The notes beneath the pieces were generated by a model that had not been told where the DNA came from, did not search any database, and saw only the letters and a program-made list of their open reading frames with translations. DNA of 46,680 nucleotides from a virus, in IMG/VR virus record IMGVR_UViG_3300021364_000041, positions 1-46,680 of that record. One strand, written 5' to 3'. Each line of letters opens with the position of its first letter. The first letter of the stretch is position 1. The position numbers were made by a program, and so were the translations under genes. Of the stretch, positions 8,104 to 28,007 are shown in pieces.

Positions 8104-8875
8104 TGTAATACTGTTCCTTAATAAGATCGGCTATACATATTCTATTTGTATAGTTTCTTTTAAATTTATTATACACTGGATCTTGTGTATTTGCAAGCCA
8201 TACTGCATCACTCGGTTCAAAATTAAGTTCAGCACATATGTTACGCTGATATGGTTCTAGTGTACGATACACAACAGCAGGATCGACACAGTTCATCAAG
8301 TGTTCGCCAAGTCCCATACTATAATAGTTATAATACTTAGCACTTTGATGTAATGCTTGTAAACGCTGATCTGGTTTCCTGCTAAAGTAATAGCCTATTC
8401 TATAGTTACGTAATCCAAAACACTTACTAAAACTGAAAAATACACGTTCAACATTATCTGTTATTGTAATATGCTGTTTAGCAGTACTTAAAAGATATGC
8501 TAAATCTAGCACCACAGGACGATCATCAGGTATATTTCTAAAGTTGCCGTCGTAGCTAGTAGGATTACTAACATAAACAACTTCTCCATCTGTTTTACCT
8601 GTAACCCACTGGTAGTCGCCTGGTGTTATTTCAATGGTTCTATTTTCTTGCCACTGCCAATAGTTAAGAGCTTCAGTTATTCCATTAACAGGGTAAATAT
8701 ATTCAAAATTTGATAAATCAACATAAGGCCGAAGATAGTCTACAATTTTTGTCTCAAGAGTTCGTATGGCAATATGATCTCGAAAACGATAACTTTCAAC
8801 TGCTGATACTACTTCTCGAACAGGGAAAGTTCTTATAGCCATACTCTGATTAAGTATTTGTGTTTGTTTATCCAT
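8090..8875 (-). CDS. Small PLP-dependent aminotransferase-like protein (fold type I)
   Basis: About 261 residues from ATG 8875, shorter than usual class I/II aminotransferases (about 350-400). The order of motifs is right: VSNPTSYDG (Asn104, like the NPxNPTG strand), VVLDLAYLLS (Asp124, pyridine nitrogen partner), and FFSFSKCFGLRNYRIGYY with Lys151 as the PLP Schiff-base lysine. The usual C-terminal arginine that holds the carboxylate is not obvious. A GTG at 8902 would extend it by 9 residues into the desaturase gene; ATG 8875 immediately follows that stop. It could aminate a keto sugar or an amino-acid precursor. It ends in TAG within the start of the next gene. Confidence 0.72.
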   Translation of the reverse strand: MDKQTQILNQSMAIRTFPVREVVSAVESYRFRDHIAIRTLETKIVDYLRPYVDLSNFEYIYPVNGITEALNYWQWQENRTIEITPGDYQWVTGKTDGEVVYVSNPTSYDGNFRNIPDDRPVVLDLAYLLSTAKQHITITDNVERVFFSFSKCFGLRNYRIGYYFSRKPDQRLQALHQSAKYYNYYSMGLGEHLMNCVDPAVVYRTLEPYQRNICAELNFEPSDAVWLANTQDPVYNKFKRNYTNRICIADLIKEQYYNDTE

Positions 8876-8876
8876 A

Positions 8877-9527
8877 TTAAGCGTTTTTAAATATGCCGAC
8901 ACGTATTAGCTGTTGTACTATCCAGCCGCCTGTGTCCCAGCGATGTAGTCGAATACGTCTGAAATTATTGTGATGTTCACGATGGTATCCTTCGCCGGCA
9001 ATTAACAAATTCAACCACGGCACATTTGATCCACCTTCTTCACGATGTCCTATAGTGTTCAATAATCCGAATCCTAATTTAGCGTGTATAAAAGGCATAA
9101 GTGCAAATGCTACAAAGAATTTAAAACTGATCAACAAGCTGATGATCCATACCACTGCTACAATTTTAAACCAATGATGATGGCAGAATACTAAAAGTGG
9201 ATTGGCAAATAAATCTTTTGCATACTTTATAGGTATACGAGGTATGTCCCATGTTGTTAATAATACTTTCCAATATCCTACATGTTTCCAACTGTGTGGA
9301 TCTTCAGGACCATCGCTGTGTACATGATGCATTCTATGACTTGCGATCCATCCAATGGGACTACGAATAACTGCAATCATAAGCATTGCAAGTCCAATAA
9401 CTTCAAACCAAATCGGTACACGGAATTGTTTATGGCAATAATATCTGTGAAGTAAAATACTAGCACCCCAATGAGAAATTAATGTTCCCCATAAGTATCC
9501 GATTATAATTACATATATCCAATCCAT
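8877..9527 (-). CDS. Membrane fatty-acid desaturase (acyl-CoA delta-9 type)
   Basis: A 216-residue integral membrane protein with the three histidine boxes of stearoyl-CoA-type desaturases: HRYYCHK (27-33), HRMHH (64-68) and HREHHNN (182-188), which hold a di-iron centre. Hydrophobic segments lie near 4-18, 40-55 and 115-145. The reaction is O2-dependent insertion of a double bond in an acyl chain at the cytoplasmic face of the membrane. It is somewhat shorter than bacterial homologues (about 270-300) but no box is missing. Start and the upstream stop share one base (TAATG). Carrying it would let a phage change host membrane fluidity or make an unsaturated acyl group. Confidence 0.9.
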   Translation of the reverse strand: MDWIYVIIIGYLWGTLISHWGASILLHRYYCHKQFRVPIWFEVIGLAMLMIAVIRSPIGWIASHRMHHVHSDGPEDPHSWKHVGYWKVLLTTWDIPRIPIKYAKDLFANPLLVFCHHHWFKIVAVVWIISLLISFKFFVAFALMPFIHAKLGFGLLNTIGHREEGGSNVPWLNLLIAGEGYHREHHNNFRRIRLHRWDTGGWIVQQLIRVGIFKNA

Positions 9528-10243
9528 TAAATTTTCCTCACAGCATCGATACTTTCTTGCCAGGTTCGAGTTGCGCTTTCAAAATTAATATTTGCAATAA
9601 CTCTATGTTTATTGCCTCTATTGATTGCTTCGTGCCATTGTTTGACATTCCATAATACAGGTCTATCAGTTAATGCATATCTACAGACTGCTTCATCGTC
9701 TGTTAAAAGATAACGTTCGTTATCTTTGTTGTATGTTTTCCAGTAATACTCACTCCAGTATACTCCTATGCTAGGATCATCGGGTATATATCCATCAACA
9801 TCTTCGTATTCAGGAAAACTTGTAATAGTGTTTTCGTCGCAGCCGGCAATTGGAAAAATTAAACTTGCTACACTTGATGTATAATGATGTCTATGACAAA
9901 AGAATAAATGCTCTACACTTTTAAAACTTGGCTGTGTTATATCACTTTGAAAAAACTTAATTGCTTTTGTAAATCCAATTTCTCCCATTAAGTCGCTTAA
10001 TTCTTTGTACTGTGGAATGTCTGACAAGTATACCACTTGCATTAATGGCTTGTCTGGATCATATAAAGCATAGTGTTCTTTAATATTTTCTTTAAAAAAA
10101 TCACTCTCAGGTTCTTGTGTATATATGTTTGGTAAATGCGAAAATATTTCCATACATTGTTCGTACATCCATTGCATACGATCTGTTAACTCAGGTTCGT
10201 ATACAAAAGGTTTTGATTTTTCAATATCTGTTAATACTGGCAT
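9527..10243 (-). CDS. 2OG-Fe(II) oxygenase-like protein with HxH in place of HxD
   Basis: A 238-residue protein. The C-terminal part PVLWNVKQWHEAINRGNKHRVIANINFE looks like the last strands of a 2OG oxygenase, with His204 as metal ligand and Arg214 for 2-oxoglutarate. The first metal motif position reads FFCHRHHYTSSVASLIFPI, so H-x-D is replaced by a histidine cluster (117, 119, 120). The N-terminal half is unrecognised. It is first in a nine-gene minus unit: AAAGGA lies about 7 nt upstream of ATG 10243 and a late-promoter octamer 19 nt upstream. It might be an active non-classical oxygenase or a cupin that lost hydroxylation. Confidence 0.55.
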   Translation of the reverse strand: MPVLTDIEKSKPFVYEPELTDRMQWMYEQCMEIFSHLPNIYTQEPESDFFKENIKEHYALYDPDKPLMQVVYLSDIPQYKELSDLMGEIGFTKAIKFFQSDITQPSFKSVEHLFFCHRHHYTSSVASLIFPIAGCDENTITSFPEYEDVDGYIPDDPSIGVYWSEYYWKTYNKDNERYLLTDDEAVCRYALTDRPVLWNVKQWHEAINRGNKHRVIANINFESATRTWQESIDAVRKI

Positions 10244-10261
10244 GAGAGTTCCTTTGTATTA

Positions 10262-11383
10262 CTATTTATCTAGAATTTTTCGCTTGGGTATTTTACTATC
10301 AGCACTACTAACACATGCAGGTGTTGTACAAACACGTGGTCCATCAAACAGTTTAAATCCTGTTTCTATATTACCTAGAGGAACATCATGACAACTGTAG
10401 CTACGCTTAATACTACCGTCAGGCTCACGGATAATAATACCGCTATACCCACTTTGACACATCCATCCTTCAAACTTGTTAAATCCGAAAGCATTAAATC
10501 TCTCCGCTTGATCCATATACCATTTTTTGCCTTTACTATCTGTAAACTCTACTTGCATATGCCATGGTACACTTTTGTCGTTTTCGCCTATTGCATAAGG
10601 CGGCAATTCGAAACTTGGCCTTGGACGATCTGCCCATTTTCGCTTTGACTCAGTATACGCCATTTGCGGCATACCGTTCCACAATCGCTGTAACATTTCA
10701 TCTGAATAACCGTCCACGACTCTTGACGCCGTTGGGTCGGATTGTGGCTTGAGGGTAACGTTGATTCCTTGTTCGTGGAAGAATAAAGCATTTTCCCAAT
10801 CTTTTTCAAACCACTCCGGAACCATGACCATATTGATAGTAATTTGTACATCGTGTTCCTGACACAGGATCAACTTGTCTGCAAAGTCCTGCATTTTCTC
10901 ACGTGTATTTAAGTGTTCAGTGTGTAAACTAGCGGTTATACTTGCTCTATGAAACGGTTTTGCACGTTCTACATAGTCCTCAAACCAACTCATCGGTCTA
11001 GAACAGTTACTTGTCATGTGTATACTAGTGTAATTAGTATTAGGCACATCATCAGCCAGATACCCCAATATGTCCAAGTATCCAGGGTGGAAGGTAGGCT
11101 CGCCCCCACTAAGACTAAAGTGAAAACTATTAAATCCATTATCACGTGCTTGCCTCTTTATTTCATCAATAGTCTTAAGACATAAGTCGGTGGGTCTGTG
11201 GTCTTTACGGTCTGATCGGGCGTAGGGCCAACAATAGCTGCAACGATAATTGCAAAACCTACCAAGTAACCAACTAACAGTAAACAAATCTCTGTAAAGA
11301 AGAGTACGTTGACCCACTTGTACGATGTCGTCGTATGGGATTTTGGTAAAATCATATTCACTCCATTTTAAATCTTCAGTCAT
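10262..11383 (-). CDS. Radical SAM protein (GGEPT class) next to a PP-loop ATPase
   Basis: A 373-residue radical SAM enzyme with cysteines 44, 48 and 51 in FCNYRCSYCWPY, the SAM-binding FSLSGGEPTFHPGYLDIL, and a C-terminal region with CQSGYSGIIIREPDG, YSCHDVPLG and a CTTPACV pair that may hold an auxiliary cluster (SPASM-like). The start is ATG 11383, preceded by GGAGAA 11 nt upstream; the longer TTG frame would start inside that site. The lead-in TVSWLLGRFCNYRCSYC resembles TVTWDVGRRCNYDCTYC of the gene at 14243, so these two are paralogues. It lies just after the QueC-like gene and is last in its transcription unit. Substrate unknown. Confidence 0.88.
   Translation of the reverse strand: MTEDLKWSEYDFTKIPYDDIVQVGQRTLLYRDLFTVSWLLGRFCNYRCSYCWPYARSDRKDHRPTDLCLKTIDEIKRQARDNGFNSFHFSLSGGEPTFHPGYLDILGYLADDVPNTNYTSIHMTSNCSRPMSWFEDYVERAKPFHRASITASLHTEHLNTREKMQDFADKLILCQEHDVQITINMVMVPEWFEKDWENALFFHEQGINVTLKPQSDPTASRVVDGYSDEMLQRLWNGMPQMAYTESKRKWADRPRPSFELPPYAIGENDKSVPWHMQVEFTDSKGKKWYMDQAERFNAFGFNKFEGWMCQSGYSGIIIREPDGSIKRSYSCHDVPLGNIETGFKLFDGPRVCTTPACVSSADSKIPKRKILDK
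10263..10270 (-). promoter_or_regulatory. Late promoter octamer GATAAATA embedded in a stop codon
   Basis: Minus-strand GATAAATA lies 19 nt before ATG 10243, predicting a leader of about 14 nt that carries AAAGGA. The same bases encode the last two residues (Asp-Lys) and most of the TAG stop of the upstream radical SAM gene (10262-10264), so promoter and stop codon are superimposed. Confidence 0.65.
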
Positions 11384-11387
11384 AATA

Positions 11388-12101
11388 TTAAAATTCTCCA
11401 AAAGCCCATTTACGTTCTAAACACCACCAGCATTTACCACATGGTTTATATTCAAAATCAGGCTTGTAATATGTGTGTACTGGAATATCTTCGCAACTTC
11501 TTGTTAATTGTAGCAAATCATCAACATTATATTGTTTATACATATCTGCAATAAATCTTTTATCTACATTTACAAATGGCAAGTAATATCCTTTATCAAA
11601 ATATTCCCATGCTGTTTGCCAAGTCGGATTATTTCTATTTGCAGACCTGTCACTAACTTCTAGTGTATTTACTAAGTTAATATTTTGATTGTTTATATTT
11701 TCAACTGTTACATCATCGGGAGGAATTGCTGTAATTCCAGAGATCACACAATCGATTCTGCTTTCCTCAAATAACTGTTTTTCAAAATCTCTTACGTAAG
11801 ACATTTGTTGTGTATCTCTGTAAAAATTATAGTGTATGTCGAAGTTATCAAATTTGAGATTATCGATTGTATAATTTATTACATCAGCAGCTTTACGCCC
11901 ATTCCATCTATGTTTTTCGTCGTTCGAACAACTTATTACATTAATTTTAGTATCGTTACGATTATTATCCTTAAGATATTTAACTATCATATATAATAAA
12001 ATACTACTATCAGCACCGCCACTGCAACGTACACCCAGCTGATGTTTATCATCTGGTATCTCAAAATTTATAGTCTGTTCAAAGCTATCGCTTAATAACA
12101 T
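11388..12101 (-). CDS. QueC-like PP-loop ATPase
   Basis: A 237-residue N-type ATP pyrophosphatase. The PP-loop is CSGGADSS (Ser27 to Ser33). The C-terminus has LTRSCED followed by PCGKCWWCLERKWAF, matching the zinc-binding SCY...CGxCxxCxxR..GF tail of QueC (7-cyano-7-deazaguanine synthase), which turns a carboxylate into an amide and nitrile using ATP and ammonia. No FolE, QueD or QueE is visible, so a true preQ0 route is not shown; a related ATP-dependent amidation is possible. ATG 12101 overlaps the upstream stop by one base (TAATG) and has AGAGGA before it. Radical SAM genes lie on both sides. Confidence 0.8.
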   Translation of the reverse strand: MLLSDSFEQTINFEIPDDKHQLGVRCSGGADSSILLYMIVKYLKDNNRNDTKINVISCSNDEKHRWNGRKAADVINYTIDNLKFDNFDIHYNFYRDTQQMSYVRDFEKQLFEESRIDCVISGITAIPPDDVTVENINNQNINLVNTLEVSDRSANRNNPTWQTAWEYFDKGYYLPFVNVDKRFIADMYKQYNVDDLLQLTRSCEDIPVHTYYKPDFEYKPCGKCWWCLERKWAFGEF

Positions 12102-13060
12102 TATAAATCCTCTTTGATAAATGTATCTCGTTTCATTTGTTTGCAGACTTGCATACACCTAGGCATTGGCTGATCACTATCCCAACTGTTTTGAATACCT
12201 TGCCAAATATCACTATGTATTGCATCTTCAATAGTTGCGTGTTTAAGGTTAATAGTTTGCATATAATCGTTATTTTTTAATAATGATTCAAACTCATCTT
12301 TATGTTCTTCGCTTGCACTATATTCTAACATCTTACTATTTAAATGACAACATGGGATAACATTGCCCATATGGTTAATAAAGATACGTTTTTGATTTCC
12401 GTACTTACAACTAACATATGGTATTTCAGGAGCATTGTCAATCTTTTCCGTTTTTGCAGCCTTGACTGTATCTCCTTTTGATTGTTTACGATGACTGATT
12501 ATTGTTTTAAAACTTTTAAATCCTTCGTCTGTTGCACGTTGTTTAGCTTCTTCAAGTTGGTGTTCGTTATGTTCAAATACAATAAATTGCCAATTGCTAC
12601 GTCCGCCTGCAGCATTAAACGCTCGAAAATTTTGTTCTACTTTTACAAAATTACTTCCTTCTCTGTATACTTCACTAAGTTCATCGCTTCCGTCGATTCC
12701 CCAAGTAACTGCATGACTGCTAGGTAATATACCTGCTAATTCTTCCCACCACTTAGTGGTACGTAAACTGCCGTTGGTAGCAATGTTTATGTGTGCGTTC
12801 CAATCTGCAAAATGTCGTATAATATCAAAAAATTGTGGATGACTAGTTGGTTCATCTACACTACCACAAAAATTAATAATCTTAATATTAGGAAACATTG
12901 ATTTTTGAAAACGTTCACGTATTGTATCTATAGTAATATATTCTTTATTTAATATTTTATCAGCATGTTTTGACAATACACGAAAGCACCCTTTGCATTC
13001 AATATTACAAAAACTAGTAAGCTCTATATCAAGCCATTCGATTGTGTCCATTGTCCACAT
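12101..13060 (-). CDS. Radical SAM protein, HNEHQ subgroup
   Basis: About 319 residues from ATG 13060, which shares one base with the upstream stop and has GAGGAA in front. The cluster cysteines are 18, 22 and 25 in SFCNIECKGC. The usual GGE is replaced by NFCGSVDEPTSHP, and a VFEHNEHQLEEAKQRA segment matches the genes at 23459 and 25933. Later come SCKYGNQKRIFINHMGNVIPCC and a terminal RCMQVCKQM, a SPASM-like cysteine set for auxiliary cluster(s). This is one of three paralogues scattered in the window. It probably modifies a peptide or small molecule; nothing in the sequence names the target. Confidence 0.85.
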   Translation of the reverse strand: MWTMDTIEWLDIELTSFCNIECKGCFRVLSKHADKILNKEYITIDTIRERFQKSMFPNIKIINFCGSVDEPTSHPQFFDIIRHFADWNAHINIATNGSLRTTKWWEELAGILPSSHAVTWGIDGSDELSEVYREGSNFVKVEQNFRAFNAAGGRSNWQFIVFEHNEHQLEEAKQRATDEGFKSFKTIISHRKQSKGDTVKAAKTEKIDNAPEIPYVSCKYGNQKRIFINHMGNVIPCCHLNSKMLEYSASEEHKDEFESLLKNNDYMQTINLKHATIEDAIHSDIWQGIQNSWDSDQPMPRCMQVCKQMKRDTFIKEDL

Positions 13061-13620
13061 TAATACCATTCCTCACTTTGCATTGGGTCAACACTAATTT
13101 CATTTATGTTAATATTCTTTGGTTGATCTATTAACCACTTAATATAATTTGCAGCCGTATCAATATCCATACATTTCCTGTCAGGGTGTTTGTGTTGATT
13201 ATTACTTAATGTACCAAAACTAATATAACTAACTTTCGGTGCACTACTCCACACTCCGCCAATTGCTAATGTATTACTATAATCACGTAGTGCCTTTTTT
13301 TCTGCATTATAAAGCCACGGCTTTCCGTTCTTTACTCTGTCAGTTGTACTACCAATCACTACAATATGTGCGTTATTTTTAACTTCTATTAGCTTTTTAT
13401 ATACAGCATCTAGTAGTACAGTTTGTTGAAACTGCCATAGTGCAGCACAAATAATAATTACATCATTTGTTGAAGCTAAATTAGAAAACTTTGTTCTACC
13501 ATCTGCAGTAGTTAAGTCAATTCCGCCAGCTTGCTTACTTACAAAAGTAGCATCTGGATATAATTTATATAATGCTCCAGCAATACCAAAATCTTTATTG
13601 CCACTAATTAACAAGTTCAT
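13060..13620 (-). CDS. SDR-like NAD(P)-binding protein
   Basis: A 186-residue Rossmann protein opening with LLISGNKDFGIAGALYK, a degenerate SDR glycine motif, then NDVIIICAALWQ in place of the NNAG strand, HIVVIGSTTD and WLYNAEKKALRDYS with the YxxxK pair. It is similar in size and role to the SDR at 912 but the motifs differ enough that they need not be recent duplicates. An ATGA overlap links it to the nitroreductase upstream and a TAATG overlap to the radical SAM gene downstream. A reductase acting on a product of this cluster is plausible; substrate unknown. Confidence 0.65.
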   Translation of the reverse strand: MNLLISGNKDFGIAGALYKLYPDATFVSKQAGGIDLTTADGRTKFSNLASTNDVIIICAALWQFQQTVLLDAVYKKLIEVKNNAHIVVIGSTTDRVKNGKPWLYNAEKKALRDYSNTLAIGGVWSSAPKVSYISFGTLSNNQHKHPDRKCMDIDTAANYIKWLIDQPKNININEISVDPMQSEEWY

Positions 13621-14246
13621 ATTAATACCGTTTGAATTGTCTTGGAATGGGGATTAATATTTTTTAAAACATTTTCATTATCATCTAGTACTGTAGTCCA
13701 TTTATGTTTAGTATTTGGAAATCCTATACCTAGTTGATAATGCGGTTTTTCAAATAATAGCCTGTCGGTTTCTCCTGTTGCTTCTAGCATAATATCAATA
13801 ATGTCATCCGAATCGAAACACTGATTATAGCCAGTTCGATAACCCATTGCATTTGCTGCTAGTGCAACTGCACCGCTACTTATTCCCATAGCTGTTCTGG
13901 AATTTAATAACCATGGATCGTAATGACCTAAACGATTGAATTCTTCACCTACATCTTCGGGCTTAGTCTCAAACCATGTAAAAACAACTGGCGCATCAAC
14001 TTGTGAATTTCTATTAATTGTAGACGGATTGTTTGGATCAATCGCCACATTGTAAAATTTACGGTTGATTGTAGGATCAGTTGACACAACTAACTTGTAA
14101 TATGCTTCATTTGCTTTTGTAGGCATATTTGTTGCTATTTCAATTAATGCATTTACATGATCTTCAGGAACAGTTTGCGTACGATCCCAATTACGTTGAC
14201 AGTGCTCCGCATTACTACTTGCTAAAATTAAATCTTCTATATTCAT
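13617..14246 (-). CDS. Nitroreductase-family flavoprotein
   Basis: A 209-residue protein with a nitroreductase-like layout: an N-terminal helix with CQRNWDRTQTVPEDHVNALIEIAT, the NMPTKANEAYYKLVVST phrase where the FMN-binding strand lies, the diagnostic ISSGAVALAANAMGYRTG helix, and YQLGIGFPNTKHK near the end. Family members use FMN and NAD(P)H to reduce nitro groups, quinones or enones, and some dehydrogenate or dehalogenate. It is tied by ATGA overlaps to the radical SAM gene upstream and the SDR downstream, so it probably acts in the same pathway. No covalent flavin motif seen. Confidence 0.85.
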   Translation of the reverse strand: MNIEDLILASSNAEHCQRNWDRTQTVPEDHVNALIEIATNMPTKANEAYYKLVVSTDPTINRKFYNVAIDPNNPSTINRNSQVDAPVVFTWFETKPEDVGEEFNRLGHYDPWLLNSRTAMGISSGAVALAANAMGYRTGYNQCFDSDDIIDIMLEATGETDRLLFEKPHYQLGIGFPNTKHKWTTVLDDNENVLKNINPHSKTIQTVLI

Positions 14247-15457
14247 TTTGTATTCTCAAATATACTCATATCTTCTATGTGTTGTGGCATGATCTTCATG
14301 AGATCATCACGTTCAATGCTTTTCGGAGTACACATTCCGCAGCCACAATGTTTTCCTGGCCCTAATGGGCATGTAATGATAGGCATTGTTTTATTTTCTA
14401 AGTTATTTCTAAATTCGTCAATGATTTTATCGCACTCTGATATTGTACCAATAGGACCACGTGTACCATCAAAACGTGCTTGACAAGTTTGGTGATGCCA
14501 TATAGTATCTGTTTGTTGTTCAATATGTAAAAAGAACCAGTTGACACTACACTGCCAGTTGCGAAATTTTGCAAAATCTAAGAATGTACTTTTTGTCCAA
14601 CAACCATCACTTCCGCACGTCTCCATTGTTCTACTACCGCAGCAAGGCCTACCTAATTCTCTTGCAAACTTCTTTTCTTCATTTTTCTCTGTTTTGACTG
14701 CACTAGCATTATGCCCGCTTTCGGCTTCAGTTTCTTCTGTAGTCTTGTTTAGTGCAGCATTTTTATCTGCCCAGTAATCTTTCATCCACTGTAACTGTTC
14801 ATCTGTATAACGATGCGCATATGAATTTTTTGAATCTTCATGTTCTCCAATCATGCGTGGAACATATCCAATGCCGTCACGTTCAAACTGCATACATAAG
14901 TCTTTGCATTCATCCCAATATTCTGCGTGGAACATCACATTAATTTTAATCGGAAAGCCTTTCTCAGTTAAGTAATAGATATTGTTTATAACTTGTTTCT
15001 TTAAACTGGCATGAGCTTCAGCATGATAACTAATAGTCATAAAGCCATAATTTTCACAAACACTATCGGCCATCTTTTTACCGAATGCACCATTACTAGT
15101 AATAGTTAAATTCATAAAAAAGTCGTCTTTATACTTTTCTTTATACGTCTGCTGCAACCATTCACCAAACGCTAAAAAGTTTGGATTATTAGTTGGCTCG
15201 CCACCTGTAAAATTAATGTTTAGTCTTTTATTCTTTTTGTAAGGAAACATTAAAGTAGCATAATCAAAAATAAACTGACCGGTTTTCTTTAATGTTTCTA
15301 GATCTGCATGTGGACTAAAGTTATCATGTCTGTGCGGAGGACAATATGTACAGTCGTAATTACAACGTCTGCCTACATCCCATGTTACTGTTAAATTATC
15401 ACCGTCTAATAAGTTAATTGCGGTAAAGTCTTTGTATTCTAATTCTAAATCTTTCAT
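14243..15457 (-). CDS. Radical SAM protein with cysteine-rich C-terminus
   Basis: A 404-residue radical SAM enzyme. The cluster cysteines are 32, 36 and 39 in RCNYDCTYCPPH, with INFTGGEPTNNPNFLAFG as the SAM motif. A long C-terminal part is rich in cysteine (GRPCCGSRTMETCGSDGCW, then CPLGPGKHCGCGMC), enough for one or two auxiliary Fe-S clusters. A charged low-complexity stretch (around residues 235-270, NKTTEETEAESGHN and following) separates the two. It is a paralogue of the gene at 10262 by its lead-in strand. ATGA overlaps join it to both neighbours. Substrate unknown. Confidence 0.88.
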   Translation of the reverse strand: MKDLELEYKDFTAINLLDGDNLTVTWDVGRRCNYDCTYCPPHRHDNFSPHADLETLKKTGQFIFDYATLMFPYKKNKRLNINFTGGEPTNNPNFLAFGEWLQQTYKEKYKDDFFMNLTITSNGAFGKKMADSVCENYGFMTISYHAEAHASLKKQVINNIYYLTEKGFPIKINVMFHAEYWDECKDLCMQFERDGIGYVPRMIGEHEDSKNSYAHRYTDEQLQWMKDYWADKNAALNKTTEETEAESGHNASAVKTEKNEEKKFARELGRPCCGSRTMETCGSDGCWTKSTFLDFAKFRNWQCSVNWFFLHIEQQTDTIWHHQTCQARFDGTRGPIGTISECDKIIDEFRNNLENKTMPIITCPLGPGKHCGCGMCTPKSIERDDLMKIMPQHIEDMSIFENTK

Positions 15458-16848
15458 TTTATTGGAGTCTCCAAATATTCTACTATGCTAGGATGTAGAT
15501 AATCATTATAACACTGATTTCTACTTTTGTCAAATGCTGTGATTTCACGCAACATATTTTTTCTATCTAAATCTGTTGGTTCATAATCTTCCCATTGTTT
15601 TAAAAATGCAATGGCATTTTTTATGTTTATTGCTACTGTATCACTATTCATACTTTCGTACAATTCTATTAATTCTTTTTTAACTTTCTTACTTAAAAAT
15701 TTTACATTGATATATTTGTCTTCAGGCCAAAGTAAATCGACATAAAATACAGACCATTCTGACGCATTGTACTTTGTTAATTCTTCTTTGTATTTTAACA
15801 GCTCCGGCAAATAATGTGCATTTAACGAACTTAACACAACATTAAAACTAAAATTTTTTAAATATTTCATTTTAGGAGTCATCGGAGATTGAATCAATTG
15901 TAATTCTGTTAATAAATTTTTTAAACTCTTATCAACTATATCCCATTGCATTGGATATCTTATATATTCATAGTTTTTACCAATACTATCAATACTAGTG
16001 TTAAGTTGTAATCCTTTAAACTGTTTTAACCTGTTAATGTTTTCATTAGAAAATTTTGTCGCATTTGTATGAAACTCTAAATATATGTTTCTACTAACGT
16101 CTTTTTTAATTGCAGTATCTAAAAATTCTAAGAATGGCTTGCTCATCAATGTTTCGCCGCCAGTGGCTTTGATATGAGTCAATGTATGTATATTATCTAA
16201 TATATTATGCCATTGTTTATTATCTGCAAAATTAACAACTCTGGTACTACCGCCTTCTTTATAATTTATATCATGTTTTAGTAGTTCTGTTCTTCCCCCA
16301 CGATTTTCCCACTGTTTTTTATAATCAAATTGTTGCATTCCGCTAGTGTCTATTTCATTATCAACAAAATATTTATAATCTATTCTTAGTTTATTACTAA
16401 GACCAGGATAACACATACGACAACGTAAGTTACAGTTTTCTCCGAACGCAAAGTCAATACTTTTTAATTCTGGAGTTTTTATTAAATATTGAAATTTATA
16501 ATCATGTTCTGGATCATTTATACCAGGAGGAGTACTTTGCAATCTATAACTCTGATTACTTCCTCTGTCTTCCATTTTCCAACATGTATTACATGCATTG
16601 TGTCGGCGACCTTCTCTCATGGCATGACGAATACTTTCCATTTCTTCACCATAAAATATTTCATTAGCTGTGATATTGTGTGGTTTGTTTTTTAATTTTT
16701 CTTTTATATTCAATGGGTCAGGCGATTCCGGGCGTATACTATTACAACACGGTGATGCATTTAATATACCTGCTTTTTCATCCCATTCTTTAAGTGCTAA
16801 CAATGAAAATGGAAACCAACAGAAAGTATTGTCAGGTTTAGGTTGCAT
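15454..16848 (-). CDS. Twitch-first radical SAM protein
   Basis: A 464-residue protein. An N-terminal cysteine module (Cys10, Cys34-Cys35, and CNTC at 86-89 in ACNTCWKMED) precedes the radical SAM cluster motif CNLRCRMC (139, 143, 146), followed by TGGETL and the shared SIDSIGKNYEYIRYPMQW block. This N-terminal twitch-like layout matches what I know as twitch-domain-containing radical SAM proteins, reported in marine phages; the name is from memory. ATG 16848 overlaps the upstream PP-loop gene by 11 bp. The extra cysteines probably hold an auxiliary cluster or bind substrate. No substrate evidence. Confidence 0.85.
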   Translation of the reverse strand: MQPKPDNTFCWFPFSLLALKEWDEKAGILNASPCCNSIRPESPDPLNIKEKLKNKPHNITANEIFYGEEMESIRHAMREGRRHNACNTCWKMEDRGSNQSYRLQSTPPGINDPEHDYKFQYLIKTPELKSIDFAFGENCNLRCRMCYPGLSNKLRIDYKYFVDNEIDTSGMQQFDYKKQWENRGGRTELLKHDINYKEGGSTRVVNFADNKQWHNILDNIHTLTHIKATGGETLMSKPFLEFLDTAIKKDVSRNIYLEFHTNATKFSNENINRLKQFKGLQLNTSIDSIGKNYEYIRYPMQWDIVDKSLKNLLTELQLIQSPMTPKMKYLKNFSFNVVLSSLNAHYLPELLKYKEELTKYNASEWSVFYVDLLWPEDKYINVKFLSKKVKKELIELYESMNSDTVAINIKNAIAFLKQWEDYEPTDLDRKNMLREITAFDKSRNQCYNDYLHPSIVEYLETPIK

Positions 16849-17707
16849 TTAAAATTCTCTTAGCTTCCTTTTTAGCCCATTGCCTTTCTGCACACCAATA
16901 GCATTGTTTATTAATATCGTCTGTCAATTGATGGCATTCTATCAAAGGACTTACACCATGTTGGTATGTTAAATATGATTCGAAATCGTCTGGGAATAAA
17001 ACTTTATCTCCTTCACAACTACGAGTTGTTTCTAATAATTCTTCCCAACCACGACGGTAATACTGACCCATTATAAATTCTTTTGAAATAAGTTTCCAAG
17101 GAGCGACAATTATCGGATCTCTGTCAGAATCTGCTGGATTAAATTGCGGACATACTCCTTCTTCTATTACTTTTTCTTCGTCCCATCTTCTATCTGCTGG
17201 TCCTTTGTGATGGGGAACACTATCAACAACAGGATTATTTGTGATGAATGTGTACACTGCATCTAAATTATAAGTATATGCAGCGAACCTGTTGAAACTT
17301 TGTGTACATATTCTATCACCGGACGTATTAATTTGTTCAATTATTCCAATTACACCATCTTCAATCTCAGGCGGAATAAAATTCTGTACTCGTTGCATTT
17401 TCACATCAGGAAACATACTTTTAATTTTTTCGTATACTTCGATACTAATCGGAGCTGCCCAAGGTCTATTGTTCCAAACTCTTACATTTGTTAAGAACAC
17501 AACTTCGGTATTGTTTCCGTGTTTTTCAATTAATTCGCATAATATACTTGTTCCAACTGCGCTGTCTGCACCACCACTAACATTTACTCCTACTCTTTTC
17601 CAAGTTGTATCGTATGGGTATAGTGCTTCGTCGACTTGATGTAATACAGCTGGATCTATATTATATATTTCATAACTTTTATTACTTAAACTGACATCAA
17701 ATGTCAT
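16838..17707 (-). CDS. QueC-like PP-loop ATPase, second copy
   Basis: A 289-residue protein with PP-loop NVSGGADSAVG (Ser44 to Ser49) and a C-terminal ETTRSCEGD ... ECHQ ... QCYWCAERQWAKKEA, the same modified QueC-type zinc tail as the gene at 11388. It is about 50 residues longer, with an insertion between the TRSCE and the final cysteines. In the middle, DSVPHHKGPADRRWDEE is unlike any motif I know. It sits between two twitch-first radical SAM genes with 11 bp overlaps on both sides. Each PP-loop gene in the window is thus flanked by radical SAM genes, suggesting an ATP-activated step coupled to radical chemistry. Confidence 0.78.
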   Translation of the reverse strand: MTFDVSLSNKSYEIYNIDPAVLHQVDEALYPYDTTWKRVGVNVSGGADSAVGTSILCELIEKHGNNTEVVFLTNVRVWNNRPWAAPISIEVYEKIKSMFPDVKMQRVQNFIPPEIEDGVIGIIEQINTSGDRICTQSFNRFAAYTYNLDAVYTFITNNPVVDSVPHHKGPADRRWDEEKVIEEGVCPQFNPADSDRDPIIVAPWKLISKEFIMGQYYRRGWEELLETTRSCEGDKVLFPDDFESYLTYQHGVSPLIECHQLTDDINKQCYWCAERQWAKKEAKRILNAT

Positions 17708-19097
17708 CGAAAATTCCTTTCATTTCTTTAAATACTGAGCTAAAACTATTGTTTCGCTGTCTGTCGCACAAACTTAAATATTCTTTAAGTTCAGGCAAAC
17801 GAATGCTCCAATCCTCTGATTCCATAAATTGCAACATACCCTCTAGTCTGCTTATACCATAACTGGCACTTCTCCATGTATCGTAATCAACTTTACCTTT
17901 ATGCCAACTCGGAATACCTTTTTCCCAGTTAGCTTCCCACCACGGATAAAATTCTTCGTACTTACGACGGCATTCTTCTTTGAACCAATTTGGTAGCACT
18001 TTTACATTTAGGTGCGGTGGATGATATACAAAGTGATAGTTGATCCCACCTGCACCAAATGGCCACATGTTGATTTTGTTAAAGTTTTGTTCTAGTTTCC
18101 ATTTGATAAAATCTGGCAGATAATATATATTAAGTGCTTGTACTGCACAAGCAACTGTAATTTCTACATTGTTACTAGTTTCTTTATCAAGTATATGGAA
18201 TACTTCTTCAGTACGTTTCCATTCACTAGGATAACGAATATAACTATTCATTTCGTGTATGCTGTCTACGCTATAATGAAAACGTACTAGTTTAAATTCT
18301 TTCCACAAATCAAATAAATCGTCTCTCCACTCTACACCATTTGAGTTATAACGTAACTCTAACTTGTGTGCAATGCCTTGACGTATTGCTTCTTCAAGTA
18401 TTTCATAATGCTCCTCAATAATAAGACTTTCGCCACCGGCAAAATAAATTTGCTGCATGTTAGGCATTTGTTCATAAAATTGCTGCCAAAATACAGGATT
18501 TTGTTTGTGCCAATTATAGCTGCTACCATTGGTAGACCCTTTGTCGCCCCACTGCATTGTTTCTTTAAGTGATTCATTTTTTACTTCTGGAAACATTGCT
18601 TTCCAATCTTTAATCCATCCACTCGAATCGTGCGGGCTACACATAACACAAGCAAGTTGACATTTAGTGCCAAACCGCAAATCAATGTATGCTAATTGTG
18701 GCGGTACTTCACCGTCTTCTGTTGTGTTAGCAATTAAGTCATCAACATTAACACGCTGACTCCAATAATTTGTCTCCCACATACGTTTGCTATTATGTCC
18801 TGCCGCTTCTTCTTTAAAGCATTTTGTACAACTAGGCGGAATTTCGCCGTTCATCATTTGCTTACGTACATTTTTCATATACTTACTGTTCCAAGCAGTT
18901 TGGAAATCGGTAACATTTAAATTATTAGGACGGCCTTCGTCGTCTTTTAATATACCTACCATGCCGCCATGTTCTTTATCATTTGTAGGACCCACGCTAC
19001 TAGCGTTAGCCGTACAACATACTCTCATTGATCCGTCTGGTCTTGTACTAAGGTGTACCCACGGTAATATACAAAATGTATCACTGGGTTTATTCAT
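17697..19097 (-). CDS. Twitch-first radical SAM protein
   Basis: A 466-residue protein: Cys9 in FCILPWVHL, Cys27-Cys28 in RVCCTANAS, CTKC at 90-93, then the radical SAM cysteines 146, 150 and 153 in KCQLACVMC. The SAM motif is FAGGESLI and the shared block reads SVDSIHEMNSYIRYPSEW. The C-terminal 180 residues are rich in Trp and Tyr and have no clear SPASM cysteines. An ATGA overlap joins it to the upstream radical SAM gene (19094), so two of these enzymes are made in tandem from one mRNA. Substrate unknown. Confidence 0.85.
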   Translation of the reverse strand: MNKPSDTFCILPWVHLSTRPDGSMRVCCTANASSVGPTNDKEHGGMVGILKDDEGRPNNLNVTDFQTAWNSKYMKNVRKQMMNGEIPPSCTKCFKEEAAGHNSKRMWETNYWSQRVNVDDLIANTTEDGEVPPQLAYIDLRFGTKCQLACVMCSPHDSSGWIKDWKAMFPEVKNESLKETMQWGDKGSTNGSSYNWHKQNPVFWQQFYEQMPNMQQIYFAGGESLIIEEHYEILEEAIRQGIAHKLELRYNSNGVEWRDDLFDLWKEFKLVRFHYSVDSIHEMNSYIRYPSEWKRTEEVFHILDKETSNNVEITVACAVQALNIYYLPDFIKWKLEQNFNKINMWPFGAGGINYHFVYHPPHLNVKVLPNWFKEECRRKYEEFYPWWEANWEKGIPSWHKGKVDYDTWRSASYGISRLEGMLQFMESEDWSIRLPELKEYLSLCDRQRNNSFSSVFKEMKGIFDDI

Positions 19098-20461
19098 TTA
19101 ATAACCTCATAAAAGTCTTTCATAATATTTTCTATATTTTGGTTTCGGTGTTTATCAAGTTGCTGTGTATATTTTTTACATTTTTCTCTATAAACATCTA
19201 TATCTTTAGCTTTACTTTCTGTAAACCAATACTGCAATTTTCCACTTTCGTCATAACCAACAGATTCAGTATAAAGTGCAATATTAACAATTCTACGGCG
19301 TAAGGTATCTAGTATTTTCCAATAATTTTGAACTTCTTGCGGATATGATGTGATGTCAGCAAGTATGTTATCTAAATACTCGATAGTAGGAACATATGTA
19401 TTCCAATACCATTTTTCTTTTCCGTATGTATTTAACAGTTTAACACTAAGGTAATTTGGATCATAAAGTAAATCTAAACTTAGTAAAAAGTTTTCACCTT
19501 TTTCAGTTTTAATCCATTTTTTTACATACCATTCAATTAAATTTCTAAGATTAAATATATTATAAATTTGTATAACTGGTGTTAAATTTAATTTAAGATC
19601 ATCTATTAATAATAATTTATCTATATTTTTATTAATTGTTTTCCAATCACTGGGATGTCTGATATAATCATTGAATTCTTCTATACCATCTATACTTCCG
19701 TTTATTACTACACTTTTGAAACTTTTAAATGATTCTATTAGCCTTTGTTGAATATTAGTTAAGTTACTTGTTATCTTTAATCTTATATTTTTACTGTATC
19801 CTTTTTCAACTAGTTTATCTAATAGGTTGTACATATCTTCGTGTAAAGTTGGTTCTCCTCCGACAAACGTAATTTCTTCAATATGCAAAATTTGCTCGTC
19901 GATACTTTTCCATAATTTTTGTGTATTCCACTCATCAACATTGTAATGTTTATAATGTGTTGGTAATCCTTGTTTGTTAAATTGTTGTTGTTCTTTAACA
20001 ATTTGACTACTAAAATGTGGCCAACACATTCTGCATTTCAAATTACACAAATTACTGAGTCTGATATCAAAATATTTAATAGTAGGATCAGTTACAACAC
20101 TGTTTATAGAATCTTTTAACTTTGTTTTCTCAACATGCAGCCATTTTTGATTTTCTTTTCTGCGTTTACTAGGAAGTTCGTCTTTTGTATCTTTATTCCA
20201 TGCACTATAAAATGTTTCTTCTTCTTTAAAACAAATCGAACATTCCTCTAATTTTTCATCTTTTAAAATTCTACTGCGTAGTTCTCGATAGTGATTGCTA
20301 TTCCATATTTCATCTATACTATGCGTATTAACATTATAAGGAACGCCGTTATTATCACGTATAACGTCATGTTTAGATACTTTACAGCATAAACGACATT
20401 GTCCTTCTGTAGTAGTTGCAAAATGTATAAAGGGAAGAATACAAAAATTTTTAAGTGTCAT
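19094..20461 (-). CDS. Twitch-first radical SAM protein, first gene of its unit
   Basis: A 455-residue protein: Cys7 in NFCILPFIHF, Cys25-Cys26 in RLCCKVS, CSIC at 74-77, radical SAM cysteines 139, 143 and 146 in LCNLKCRMC, then TFVGGEPTLHE and SIDGIEEFNDYIRHPSDW. The N-terminal module begins only seven residues from the start, and no other in-frame start is possible without destroying it, so ATG 20461 is firm. A perfect AATAAATA octamer ends 5 nt before this ATG, and no Shine-Dalgarno is present. It heads the ten-gene minus unit that runs to 10262. Confidence 0.87.
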   Translation of the reverse strand: MTLKNFCILPFIHFATTTEGQCRLCCKVSKHDVIRDNNGVPYNVNTHSIDEIWNSNHYRELRSRILKDEKLEECSICFKEEETFYSAWNKDTKDELPSKRRKENQKWLHVEKTKLKDSINSVVTDPTIKYFDIRLSNLCNLKCRMCWPHFSSQIVKEQQQFNKQGLPTHYKHYNVDEWNTQKLWKSIDEQILHIEEITFVGGEPTLHEDMYNLLDKLVEKGYSKNIRLKITSNLTNIQQRLIESFKSFKSVVINGSIDGIEEFNDYIRHPSDWKTINKNIDKLLLIDDLKLNLTPVIQIYNIFNLRNLIEWYVKKWIKTEKGENFLLSLDLLYDPNYLSVKLLNTYGKEKWYWNTYVPTIEYLDNILADITSYPQEVQNYWKILDTLRRRIVNIALYTESVGYDESGKLQYWFTESKAKDIDVYREKCKKYTQQLDKHRNQNIENIMKDFYEVIK

Positions 20462-20496: not shown

Positions 20497-21789
20497 ATGA
20501 AACATAAAACCTATTGTACTTTTCCATTTGACAGTATTGCTCCTAAAAGCTGGAAAAACGGTAGACCGCATCGTGTTACGCCTTGTTGTAATATGAAAAA
20601 TGATACAGACGATCCTATGAATGTAAAGCCTTTAATCGATAAAGGAGCAAGTTTAACAGAAATTTTTAATTCAGATCAATTTACTAAATTAAGAAACGAT
20701 TTGCTGACTGGTGTTAAAAATCCTGCTTGCGAATACTGTTGGAGGTTAGAAGAAAGCACAGGATCTAGTCCCAGACTTACATCAATTGAAGATTTAACAG
20801 AAGTTAAATTATTGCCTCAACTTTCTAAGTTAGATACAATGGTAGACGAATCTTGTAACCTTCGCTGTCGTATGTGTGCGCCAAGTGTTAGCAATAGTTT
20901 ACGTCAAGACTATAATCGTATAGTCGAACTAGACTTACCATTACCGGAATATTATAACGCAAAGCAAGAAGAAAGTCAACAAGATCCATTGGGAAATAAA
21001 AGTTTCTTTGCAATAGGTGAAAAATATCAACAAGAAATTATAGACCTTGCACAACAACTAAACGAATTAAAATTTACCGGAGGCGAGCCGACTACTAGCA
21101 GTGTGTTCTGGAACATAGTAGATTCGATTGACAACAAAAGTAAAATTAAACTACACTTAACAACAAATGGTACTAAATTTAACAATCGTTTTTTGGAAAC
21201 TGCAGCACAGTTCGGTTCTCGTCATTTTACTTTAAGTGTTGATGCTACTCGTAGTACATATGAATATATTCGATATCCATTTAGTTGGAGACAATTAGAA
21301 AAAAATATAGAACACCTGTGCGATACTCAAGATCCTAACACAACAGAAATACATATGTGTTCTGTACTTACTGTTTATAATATGATTAATATAAGAAATT
21401 TAGTAGACTGGATACATCAACACAACTGGTATAATGAACACAAAATTACATGGAAATGTATTCCGGACCCACACCCATATAATAGTTGCTTAGACGTAAA
21501 ATGGGCTGATCCCGAATTAATTGAAATTGCCTGGATGAATATGAGTGTAGCACTAGAAGATGCAACAGAATACACTCGCCCTGCACTACAAAAAACCTGC
21601 AACTATCTTACTAACTGTATGAAAGCTGTACATGACGTAGAACTTGTAAATCAAAAACGCCAACAGCTAAAGCGTGATACACTAACACTCGACATTGTAC
21701 GTGAACAAAACTACGAAGAAATATTGTATCCGCAGATAGCAGACTTTATCTCAAATATTCGAATGACGGATGAACCGCCCAAGCGTTAA
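20497..21789 (+). CDS. Twitch-first radical SAM protein
   Basis: A 430-residue protein from ATG 20497. N-terminal cysteines are 7, 30-31 (TPCCNM) and 78-81 (ACEYCWRLEE); radical SAM cysteines are 120, 124 and 127 in CNLRCRMC. The SAM motif is FTGGEPTTSSV and the shared block SVDATRSTYEYIRYPFSW. An upstream in-frame ATG at 20455 lies inside the divergent gene and would place 14 unrelated residues before the family's short N-terminus, so 20497 is preferred. It is transcribed alone on the plus strand from a consensus late promoter. Its 3' end overlaps the opposite-strand radical SAM gene by 44 bp. Confidence 0.86.
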   Translation: MKHKTYCTFPFDSIAPKSWKNGRPHRVTPCCNMKNDTDDPMNVKPLIDKGASLTEIFNSDQFTKLRNDLLTGVKNPACEYCWRLEESTGSSPRLTSIEDLTEVKLLPQLSKLDTMVDESCNLRCRMCAPSVSNSLRQDYNRIVELDLPLPEYYNAKQEESQQDPLGNKSFFAIGEKYQQEIIDLAQQLNELKFTGGEPTTSSVFWNIVDSIDNKSKIKLHLTTNGTKFNNRFLETAAQFGSRHFTLSVDATRSTYEYIRYPFSWRQLEKNIEHLCDTQDPNTTEIHMCSVLTVYNMINIRNLVDWIHQHNWYNEHKITWKCIPDPHPYNSCLDVKWADPELIEIAWMNMSVALEDATEYTRPALQKTCNYLTNCMKAVHDVELVNQKRQQLKRDTLTLDIVREQNYEEILYPQIADFISNIRMTDEPPKR

Positions 21790-22825
21790 TGTTACGTGAA
21801 CGACTAACCGCTTCCATATATTCTATTAAAGTATGATGATGATCTTCATTGTAAACAGCACGACTTGCCATATTTTCTAATTCTTGGAAACGATCAGTTA
21901 AATTAGTCCAAAGTGATTTACATGCATCAAGTTGATGTAATGTATAATCAATTGCAACAGGTGGCATAGCATGTAAACTAAAGTGCTTAGGTTTTGTACA
22001 TTCGTTAAAAACTATTTTTGTACGTGGCACACGTTCTCTAAATTCTGAGAACCATTCTGCCCAACTGCGAACTGTTAATATGTTAAACGGTTGTACAACA
22101 ATGTTTACATTCATATCATCGCACAACTGTTCTTCTATTGCAGTATCTATGTTGTCTTTTATTGCACGCCAATCTGCAGGATAACGTATAAACTCTAGTA
22201 TAGATCCAGTAGCATCTAAACTAAGTGTTATACACATACGCTTAAATCTCGGTTTATACTTGCGCAAAAACGGCAGCATACGAGTTGCATTTGTTGTAAC
22301 CCAAAGTTCAGTGTCTGCTGTATTTGTTAAACTGTCTAAAAATTCTATACACTTTGGATCAATTGTAGGCTCGCCGCCTGCTACTTTTAATACTCGTAAA
22401 TTAGATAAGTCTACTGGAACATTTACTGTTGTGTTTTCAAACTCACGTGGCACATCTTTAAAGAACTTTTCCATCTCAGGATTGCTGCGAACATAACTTT
22501 CGATTTTACTACTATCCAATGGGCTGCACATATTACACTGTAAGTTACAATAATTGCTTGTACGTACATCTGCATACACAATACCTGTGCTACCGTAGTT
22601 TTTTCTATATTGATCAAACTTTTCTCTAAGTGTAGTTTTATGTAAACTTTGCTCTTGACATATACTACAGTTTGGTATATAGTCATCACTGCTAGCTATT
22701 TGTTCAGCAGGTATGCTAGGATCATAATCTTTAGGTGCCCAAGTTTGTTGATACTGACAACAGGGTGAGATGCGGTCTTGATTAGTTCTATAGAATATGC
22801 CTATGTCCGGAGCACTGCATTTCAT
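21746..22825 (-). CDS. Short twitch-first radical SAM protein
   Basis: A 359-residue member of the twitch-first group with a trimmed N-terminal module: Cys3, Cys22-Cys23 in SPCCQYQ, and CSIC at 53-56. Radical SAM cysteines are 93, 97 and 100 in YCNLQCNMC, followed by VAGGEPTIDPK and SLDATGSILEFIRYPADW. It is the shortest of the eight and may be the minimal form. An ATGA overlap joins it to the SGNH gene upstream. The 3' end lies antisense over the end of the radical SAM gene at 20497. Substrate unknown. Confidence 0.84.
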   Translation of the reverse strand: MKCSAPDIGIFYRTNQDRISPCCQYQQTWAPKDYDPSIPAEQIASSDDYIPNCSICQEQSLHKTTLREKFDQYRKNYGSTGIVYADVRTSNYCNLQCNMCSPLDSSKIESYVRSNPEMEKFFKDVPREFENTTVNVPVDLSNLRVLKVAGGEPTIDPKCIEFLDSLTNTADTELWVTTNATRMLPFLRKYKPRFKRMCITLSLDATGSILEFIRYPADWRAIKDNIDTAIEEQLCDDMNVNIVVQPFNILTVRSWAEWFSEFRERVPRTKIVFNECTKPKHFSLHAMPPVAIDYTLHQLDACKSLWTNLTDRFQELENMASRAVYNEDHHHTLIEYMEAVSRSRNINAWAVHPSFEYLR

Positions 22826-27015: not shown

Positions 27016-27790
27016 GTAAAATTTTCTCTATTCTGGGTAGTAAAAAGTTGTTTAGTAATATGTTGTTGCCTTCAATATCAAAATGATACCCATCATCAAT
27101 GCAATAGTTTAAAAAATCAGTCATGTCTTCACTTAAAATAAAATCTAAGTATTTTCGATTTTTATTTGTATCGCTTTCTGTTTGACCTCGATGATTAACA
27201 TGTCTATATGCAATGTAAGGAATTTCATTTTCTTTGCATAAATCGACCATTTCTTGTTCCATCATTCTAGAAAACTCCATTGACAACGGACCACATGTAG
27301 ATAAACCATGCAACATATTTTGTATATATGCAGATTTTATTCGACTTGAAGAATCTTTTAAAGATAATAGTGCTGCATTGAGATGAATAACCCCCATGGA
27401 ATTAAAATTATAAGTATCATAGTCGCTTTGAGAATCGTCAAAATCGTATTCATAATAATTTTCAGTCTGACAATACCCACCTTGTTTAAGATTGTTGTTC
27501 AAATTAAATCGATAATTTTCTTCGTCTTTAATAAATGTTTGTCTCATTGATGTTGTGAATTGTAATATGATAAGTTTAAGATCTGTTTTATCTTTAAGTA
27601 ATTCATGTTTGAGTTGATATAGTTGATTTTCTAAGCTACTACAATACTGAGATAAGTTATCAACTGAAAACGGCTTTTCAGCTTCATTTAATTTTATTTG
27701 CAACATTTCAGGCCAACTAATATAAATATCGTCATCTGTACGACTAAATGCTTTGCTAAAACTACATCCTAATACTATTATTTTATTCAT
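27008..27790 (-). CDS. SGNH-hydrolase-like protein
   Basis: A 260-residue protein with IIVLGCSFSKAFSR as block I (Ser nucleophile), and DDGYHFDIEGNNILLNN as block V with the catalytic Asp-x-x-His pair. The middle is mostly helical and not recognised. Expected activity is hydrolysis or transfer of an ester acyl group. It overlaps neighbours by 8 bp on each side, with the small unknown gene upstream and a radical SAM gene downstream, repeating the SGNH-next-to-radical-SAM arrangement seen at 22822 and 33557. Confidence 0.72.
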   Translation of the reverse strand: MNKIIVLGCSFSKAFSRTDDDIYISWPEMLQIKLNEAEKPFSVDNLSQYCSSLENQLYQLKHELLKDKTDLKLIILQFTTSMRQTFIKDEENYRFNLNNNLKQGGYCQTENYYEYDFDDSQSDYDTYNFNSMGVIHLNAALLSLKDSSSRIKSAYIQNMLHGLSTCGPLSMEFSRMMEQEMVDLCKENEIPYIAYRHVNHRGQTESDTNKNRKYLDFILSEDMTDFLNYCIDDGYHFDIEGNNILLNNFLLPRIEKILHV

Positions 27791-28007
27791 TTAAAATCAA
27801 CTCGACGTCCATTCCAGGTCCTGTTTTACTAGGTAAATCGCCGTACTCGTCGACATACCATTCAATAACTGCTTTGTACCATAAATGACTATTATGATGT
27901 GCAAGTTTGTTAAACTTGTAGATGTTATTATTTGTCGCTTGCATTGCACTTAATGCACGTGCACTTTCTTTTTGTAATTCTCTTACTGTAAAATCGTCTA
28001 AATTCAT
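27783..28007 (-). CDS. Small protein of unknown function (74 aa)
   Basis: A 74-residue acidic protein, start ATG 28007 in an ATGA overlap with the methyltransferase-like gene. It contains a helical first half (VRELQKESARALSAMQ) and a Trp/Tyr segment (HLWYKAVIEWYVDEYGDLP). No signal peptide, membrane segment or known motif. Its tight coupling to both neighbours argues that it is a real gene. It might be a carrier or partner protein, but no phosphopantetheine-type DSL serine is present. I do not recognise it. Confidence 0.65.
   Translation of the reverse strand: MNLDDFTVRELQKESARALSAMQATNNNIYKFNKLAHHNSHLWYKAVIEWYVDEYGDLPSKTGPGMDVELILNE

Follow-up and report, generated by a model that had tools for sequence, protein, structure and literature searches.

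The virus record IMGVR_UViG_3300021364_000041 of IMG/VR, hereafter the window, is a linear contig of 46,680 bases with a G+C content of 34%. It carries two genes for PP-loop ATPases of the QueC superfamily on the minus strand, at 11388..12101 (PP-loop 1) and 16838..17707 (PP-loop 2), both embedded among radical S-adenosylmethionine (SAM) genes. QueC (PF06508) is 7-cyano-7-deazaguanine synthase, and the question raised by this locus is what two such proteins do where no que partner stands near them. The two genes belong to a distinct QueC-superfamily clade that is set apart from QueC, and the two window proteins are not QueC. We see about an even chance that both are ATP-dependent carboxylate-activating ligases, of the amide- or nitrile-forming type, in a multi-radical-SAM tailoring pathway whose target is probably a surface glycan or a small molecule and not 7-deazaguanine.

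Both open reading frames (ORFs) are intact and each contains SGGADS, as stated in a preliminary description of the locus. Gene calls in the window and in its relatives were mechanical. The start of PP-loop 1 is most likely the ATG at 12101, giving 237 residues, and not the mechanically listed GTG at 12158; its downstream radical SAM neighbour most likely starts at 11383. PP-loop 2, with 289 residues, is a deep paralogue in the same family. The tails read TRSCE...CWWCLERKWA and TRSCE...CYWCAERQWA, respectively, so the TRSCE and the C[WY]WC.ER.WA end described earlier stand for both proteins, but the literal C(G)xC is absent from PP-loop 2. The tail cysteines of PP-loop 1 are C203, C221, C224 and C227 (spacing 17, 2, 2), and those of PP-loop 2 are C231, C258, C269 and C272 (spacing 26, 10, 2). 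Judged from their sequences, both proteins thus carry a four-cysteine C-terminal tail, which may bind zinc as in the superfamily. Within the window, the two PP-loop genes hold the only two occurrences of the tail pattern TGYNNNTGGTGYNNNGARMGNNNNTGGGC, which never arose in 100 dinucleotide shuffles. Pfam matches QueC to the tail of PP-loop 1 only, at 24 bits (cut-off 22). Two IMG/VR scans on the tail motif supplied the family, so its tail-motif columns are conserved by construction, and all family counts given here are among the matches listed. There are at least 223 motif-bearing ORFs on fetched contigs, at least 205 of them with the superfamily loop SGGxDS, which both window proteins share, and at least 168 are non-redundant at 85%.

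The defining features of QueC are YxQxHxxE, VPxRN, YPDC and the zinc motif (PMC13329287). In QueC and Cap9, YPDC supplies the Tyr and Asp that bind deazaguanine; QatC has other residues in their place (PMC13279940). We compared 156 family members with nine canonical QueC controls from bacterial genomes. YPDC was found in none of the members as compared to seven of the nine controls, and the same counts were obtained for YxQxHxxE; VPxRN was found in one member and in eight controls. Both window proteins lack VPxRN and YxQxHxxE. PP-loop 1 has GITAIPP where QueC has GVNAVDYSGYPDC, and PP-loop 2 has a TNNP motif. At the YPDC position the family shows a T-x-N-P-like segment and, farther along, a near-invariant Arg. 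The absence of the QueC substrate motifs indicates that the substrate site was changed, with the ATP site and the zinc tail retained.

Because the record consists of the contig alone, with no further genome, FolE, QueD, TGT and DpdA were sought in large related phages. Neither FolE nor QueD was found in the window, in agreement with the preliminary description. The wider search that it had proposed covered 27 large records (106-383 kb) reached through family loci, of which 23 carry the PP-loop family. FolE was present in 19 of the 27 and QueD in 8, whereas TGT, DpdA and canonical QueC over the cut-off were found in none of these records, which may be incomplete. In the seven QueD regions that were read, QueD lay in no que cluster, and neither QueE nor QueC was seen beside it by inspection. 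Pterin genes alone therefore do not amount to a preQ0 pathway in these phages, TGT, DpdA and canonical QueC being absent from the 27 records. The preliminary description had allowed for a deazaguanine-like pathway completed elsewhere in the genome. The FolE and QueD genes, the QueC fold and the zinc tail would suit such a divergent preQ0/7-deazaguanine enzyme, but the family is without the 7-deazaguanine-binding residues, and the missing motifs and partner genes make this alternative highly improbable. A role in the preQ0 pathway was rejected on these two grounds.

AlphaFold2 models were built from alignments of 57 (PP-loop 1) and 44 (PP-loop 2) family members and reached mean predicted local distance difference test values of 90.9 and 90.2, respectively. 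The PP-loop 1 model matched Cap9 best (9nto_B, Z 14.2, 2.7 A over 162 residues), followed by MesJ/TilS (13.0) and QueC (12.9 for 3bl5, and 12.4). MesJ/TilS and QueC are thus tied, and of the listed matches Cap9 and QueC run through the tail to residue 236. The PP-loop 2 model matched QueC best (3bl5, Z 14.5; 2pg3, 13.7), with Cap9 and QatC (9y01) both at 12.3, and the alignment includes the zinc tail. Taken together, the predicted models are co-linear with QueC and Cap9 at Z 12.3-14.5 across 162-188 residues. Both models can also be aligned with TtuA, NcsA and LarE (Z 10.9-12.7), which would suit an enzyme of sulphur transfer whose cysteine tail holds a cluster or a persulfide. However, QueC and Cap9 lead or tie for PP-loop 1, QueC leads for PP-loop 2, and the C..CGxCxxC tail of QueC and Cap9 matches the family tail in register; we consider sulphur transfer the least probable of the alternatives weighed here.

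Profile comparison and phylogeny gave the same placement. The profile of PP-loop 1 relatives matched nine canonical QueC proteins with 97.7-98.7% probability, and the PP-loop 1 and PP-loop 2 clade profiles matched each other with E 1e-46. The top PDB match of the PP-loop 1 profile was Cap9; searches of the PDB with the single PP-loop protein sequences returned chance matches only. A tree against QueC and other PP-loop proteins, the check suggested in the preliminary description, was built from 62 sampled family members, nine QueC and eight other PP-loop proteins. The family formed one clade of its own (support 0.98), and QueC was separate (0.99). The family resembles QueC in its fold, in the SGGxDS loop, in a P..K segment ahead of the tail and in a TxSC...CGxCxxC zinc tail in register. 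It differs by the absence of YPDC, YxQxHxxE and, one member excepted, VPxRN, by its CxWCxERxWA tail, by the lack of que partners nearby and by its separate clade.

The likeness to Cap9, a QueC-like N-terminal conjugase of type IV CBASS (cyclic-oligonucleotide-based anti-phage signalling system), suggested another function. Like Cap9, and as proposed for QatC, the PP-loop enzyme could act on the N-terminus of a partner protein and attach to it a small carboxylate that the radical SAM enzymes produce. Cap9 is the closest solved structure to PP-loop 1 and shares the SC-E and CGxCxxCxxR tail elements, and the Tyr and Asp that bind deazaguanine are replaced in QatC too (PMC13279940). QatC of the qatABCD defence system has, like the family, a QueC core with a remodelled substrate site, and is among the matches of the PP-loop 2 model (Z 12.3). 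The window genes, however, have no CD-NTase neighbour and are surrounded by radical SAM genes, they lack the deazaguanine-binding Tyr and Asp of Cap9, and they belong to a phage and not to host defence. QatC, unlike the window proteins, has long N- and C-terminal extensions and works with QatA, QatB and QatD; Pfam found no QatA ATPase, QatB or QatD TatD nuclease in the ten-gene run that holds both PP-loop genes. The PADLOC models for QatC and QueC matched the tail of PP-loop 1 only, at 12-18 bits (12 bits for QatC), and left PP-loop 2 unmatched. A Met-Gly conjugation partner of the Cap9/QatC kind was sought and not found in the window or among the neighbours: no intact window ORF starts with Met-Gly, and an MG[GSTA] start occurs in only 4 of 195 non-radical-SAM neighbours. 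Protein conjugation is the strongest of the alternatives and is still unlikely. The WbpG-type N-sugar amidotransferases (PF06508 cluster 5) are PP-loop enzymes whose substrate is a sugar of a surface polysaccharide, a target of the type that we propose, but their cysteines are arranged as CxxC(x)6CxC, and this published description sets them apart from the family (PMC13329287).

The family is large and almost purely viral, the members from the IMG/VR scans being on contigs of uncultivated phages. The tail motif gave 63 matches in 84,980 prokaryote genomes, and four of these are real members. Two of the four lie in phage-like cassettes (L231 and L234) and two in Bdellovibrionia (L233 and L245). 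The latter, on contigs of metagenome-assembled genomes, are the only members in apparent bacterial chromosomes, and their neighbours are an adenosine phosphosulfate kinase, a CysD-like protein with a phosphoadenosine phosphosulfate reductase domain, a CysN-like GTPase and an unnamed gene of 232-248 residues. A sulfotransferase reading of a gene beside these two members was dropped for want of Pfam support. No family member was detected by tblastn in 50,697 isolate phages with three members as queries (PP-loop 1, PP-loop 2 and the copy on contig L012). T4-type gp23 exceeded the cut-off in 15 of the 27 large records. Each of these records has between 2 and 21 twitch radical SAM matches, and 26 of them have 7 to 21.

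A radical SAM gene adjoins 76 of the 150 testable non-redundant members. Around the family genes, radical SAM genes occur at a rate of 0.41 at position +1, which declines to 0.08 at a distance of 8 genes on either side. In the clade of PP-loop 2 a radical SAM gene is adjacent in 41 of 49 members. Adjacency follows the tree, with 20 changes as compared to 41 in shuffles, which ignore the relatedness of contigs. Reciprocal searches that started from the radical SAM genes at 17697 and 10262 and covered 6 kb on each side found the PP-loop family in 40 of 54 and 34 of 58 loci, respectively. Furthermore, a few relatives have both domains in one protein. In L023, L045 and L077 a single frame of about 830 residues has an N-terminal radical SAM part and a C-terminal part of the PP-loop 2 type; the four fusion contigs represent three distinct sequences, because L078 repeats L023 almost exactly where the two overlap.

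In the window, both PP-loop genes lie in a translationally coupled run of ten genes that reads downward from 20461 on the minus strand. From 20461 down to the unnamed gene at 9527, the gaps between successive genes are -4, -11, -11, -4, -4, -4, -10, -1, +4 and +18 nucleotides. According to the preliminary description, each PP-loop gene lies between radical SAM genes, with overlaps of 1-11 bp or a 4-nucleotide gap, and the measured gaps agree. The run begins with a twitch-domain radical SAM gene of 455 residues (19094..20461; NF033640, 312 bits). It is followed by the most conserved partner, a twitch-domain radical SAM gene of 466 residues (17697..19097; 412 bits), by PP-loop 2, and by a third of 464 residues (15454..16848; 239 bits), all three passing the NF033640 cut-off of 170. 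Next comes a radical SAM gene of 404 residues with CNYDCTYCPP (14243..15457), a recurrent neighbour of the family. A nitroreductase-like gene of 209 residues (13617..14246) follows, matched at 18.9 bits, under the Pfam cut-off, with a relative in L231 over it. Then comes a Rossmann protein of 186 residues that resembles short-chain dehydrogenases/reductases by our reading of the sequence, with a weak FabG-like PHROG match only (13060..13620), another recurrent neighbour. A radical SAM/SPASM-like gene of 322 residues with CNIECKGC (12101..13069), PP-loop 1 and a radical SAM gene of 373 residues with CNYRCSYC (10262..11383) complete the run, all genes being on the minus strand.

The superfamily chemistry is adenylation of a carboxylate, release of pyrophosphate and attack by an amine, and in QueC a second round gives the nitrile. 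This chemistry and the link to radical SAM genes led us to propose that the two proteins activate a carboxylate within a pathway of several radical SAM enzymes. The predicted fold, the motifs, the clade, the viral distribution, the linkage and the fusions underlie this proposal, to which the superfamily contributes the ATP chemistry and the zinc, and the neighbours a guess at the target. Each zinc-stabilised ligase would bind ATP through SGGADS and adenylate the carboxylate (or amide) group of a substrate supplied by the radical SAM enzymes that are encoded next to it. Pyrophosphate would then be released and an amine coupled to give an amide, a nitrile or an amidine. The ligases would serve a multi-radical-SAM tailoring pathway that T4-like aquatic phages carry in their variable island. 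Its target would most likely be a surface glycan, or else a small building block that is joined to one, and modifying this target might alter the surface of the infected cell or the virion. The preliminary description had likewise suggested an amidation or nitrile step for a radical SAM pathway. The QueC-like fold with a zinc tail and the tie to radical SAM genes, seen in neighbourhoods, reciprocal searches, tree clustering and fusions, bear out that view; the amide or nitrile step itself is only what the fold naturally suggests.

Several points weigh against this proposal. Radical SAM enzymes of the SPASM and twitch types frequently have peptides or proteins as substrates, and the glycan target leans on loose neighbours. 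Moreover, the link to radical SAM does not hold throughout the family, since 47 of the 168 members lie in loci without a radical SAM gene. There the PP-loop gene has as neighbours genes for NrdA/NrdB, for a terminase-like or a DNA-polymerase-like protein, for an Asp/Arg-hydroxylase or for a carbamoyltransferase; we assigned the names NrdA, NrdB, terminase and polymerase by reading the sequences. That these 47 members sit beside other kinds of genes argues that the enzyme serves more than one pathway. It would also fit hypermodification of phage DNA by amidation of a base carboxylate. For this there is a precedent in the Asn-synthetase-like CmoY, acting with 5-carboxymethylcytosine in Synechococcus phage S-B43 (PMC12783734). 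CmoY, however, is not QueC-like, no base-modifying partner was recognised among the Pfam-scanned window ORFs, and core-gene neighbourhoods may be mere insertion spots. DNA hypermodification is therefore distinctly unlikely.

In a further alternative, the radical SAM enzymes and the ligase mature a ribosomally made peptide or small protein. The neighbours of the PP-loop genes fall in the NCBI twitch-domain radical SAM family, and a cluster for a ribosomally synthesized and post-translationally modified peptide includes an Asn-synthetase-like enzyme that forms a peptide nitrile (PMC13060819). A possible partner or substrate is a highly conserved ORF of 74 residues at 27783..28007 on the minus strand, in the same radical SAM island and upstream of the radical SAM gene at 25933-27015. 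It has no Pfam or PHROG match and is found at 37 viral loci of IMG/VR, where relatives of 28896 and 28004 often precede it. A 25933-like radical SAM gene lies within two genes after it in nearly all of 35 loci. This ORF is not adjacent to the PP-loop genes, though, a PP-loop gene is present at just 13 of the 35 loci, and the ORF is more strongly conserved than a typical precursor peptide. Peptide maturation is accordingly an improbable function.

For the carboxylate-activating proposal, the guess of a surface glycan comes from the NTP_transferase, cytidylyltransferase-like and carbamoyltransferase genes of the window, and by analogy from pelagimyophages. In those phages radical SAM cassettes occur together with lipopolysaccharide genes in a host-recognition island (PMC7029224). 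The cytidylyltransferase match is weak, and the window also contains genes of the fatty-acid-desaturase and TauD families.

Other features of the island and of the family were noted. Relatives of the radical SAM gene at 17697-19097 are present on 235 IMG/VR stretches and those of the gene at 10262-11383 on 373; the best 80 of each set are at least 81% and at least 82% identical, respectively. In the 50,697 isolate phages, tblastn found no match for the 10262 radical SAM gene or the 74-residue ORF, and matched 17697 at 23% only. The two radical SAM genes are thus absent or nearly so from isolate phages, yet their conservation is unusually high for variable-island genes. The radical SAM gene at 21746-22825 differs from its counterpart in a near-identical twin contig (L002) by 57 synonymous and 22 nonsynonymous codons; its neighbours differ far less, which suggests local recombination. 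Short genes at 22822, 27008, 33557, 35941, 36523 and 37062, among the radical SAM genes, look like SGNH/GDSL hydrolases by eye, and Pfam, where scanned, gave no confirmation. A second kind of fusion, L188:54-1796 on the minus strand, joins a PP-loop part to an unnamed N-terminal domain of about 360 residues with no Pfam or PHROG match. A free copy of this domain lies beside the PP-loop gene in L166, and distant relatives beside PP-loop genes in L175, L183 and L213. In the marine phage contig L004, the end of a 5-aminolevulinate synthase gene (8841-10034; TIGR01821, 553 bits, cut-off 338.55) overlaps the start of a PP-loop gene (10031-10717) by 4 nucleotides, just downstream of apparent NrdA and NrdB genes.

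A T4-like marine phage genome with 12 radical SAM genes has been published (PMC5332604). Excerpts of this paper and of PMC7029224, both on radical-SAM-rich T4-like phages, mention no PP-loop partner, fusions or 74-residue ORF. Searches of an open-access library turned up no description of the PP-loop family, of the radical SAM genes that accompany it or of the fusions. Repurposing of the QueC fold is already known for Cap9, QatC, LarE and WbpG (PMC13329287); the PP-loop family is a further case beside these four, and none of the clusters detailed in that paper fits it. Since three sequences fuse both parts, a radical SAM and PP-loop pair could be produced as a single chain for tests of its chemistry.

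QueC has been listed among globally conserved viral "auxiliary metabolic genes" and interpreted as preQ0 synthesis, as retold in PMC9301287. PP-loop 1 passes the Pfam QueC cut-off without the deazaguanine-binding residues, so some viral queC counts may measure the PP-loop family, and many ocean-virus "queC" genes may be unrelated to queuosine. It is possible, though we hold it only tentatively, that an uncultivated lineage of T4-like aquatic phages carries a virus-made pathway of twitch radical SAM enzymes, QueC-fold ligases and tailoring enzymes, which would modify a macromolecule of the phage or of its host in a chemically new way, the QueC scaffold having been adapted once more, this time to a new carboxylate.

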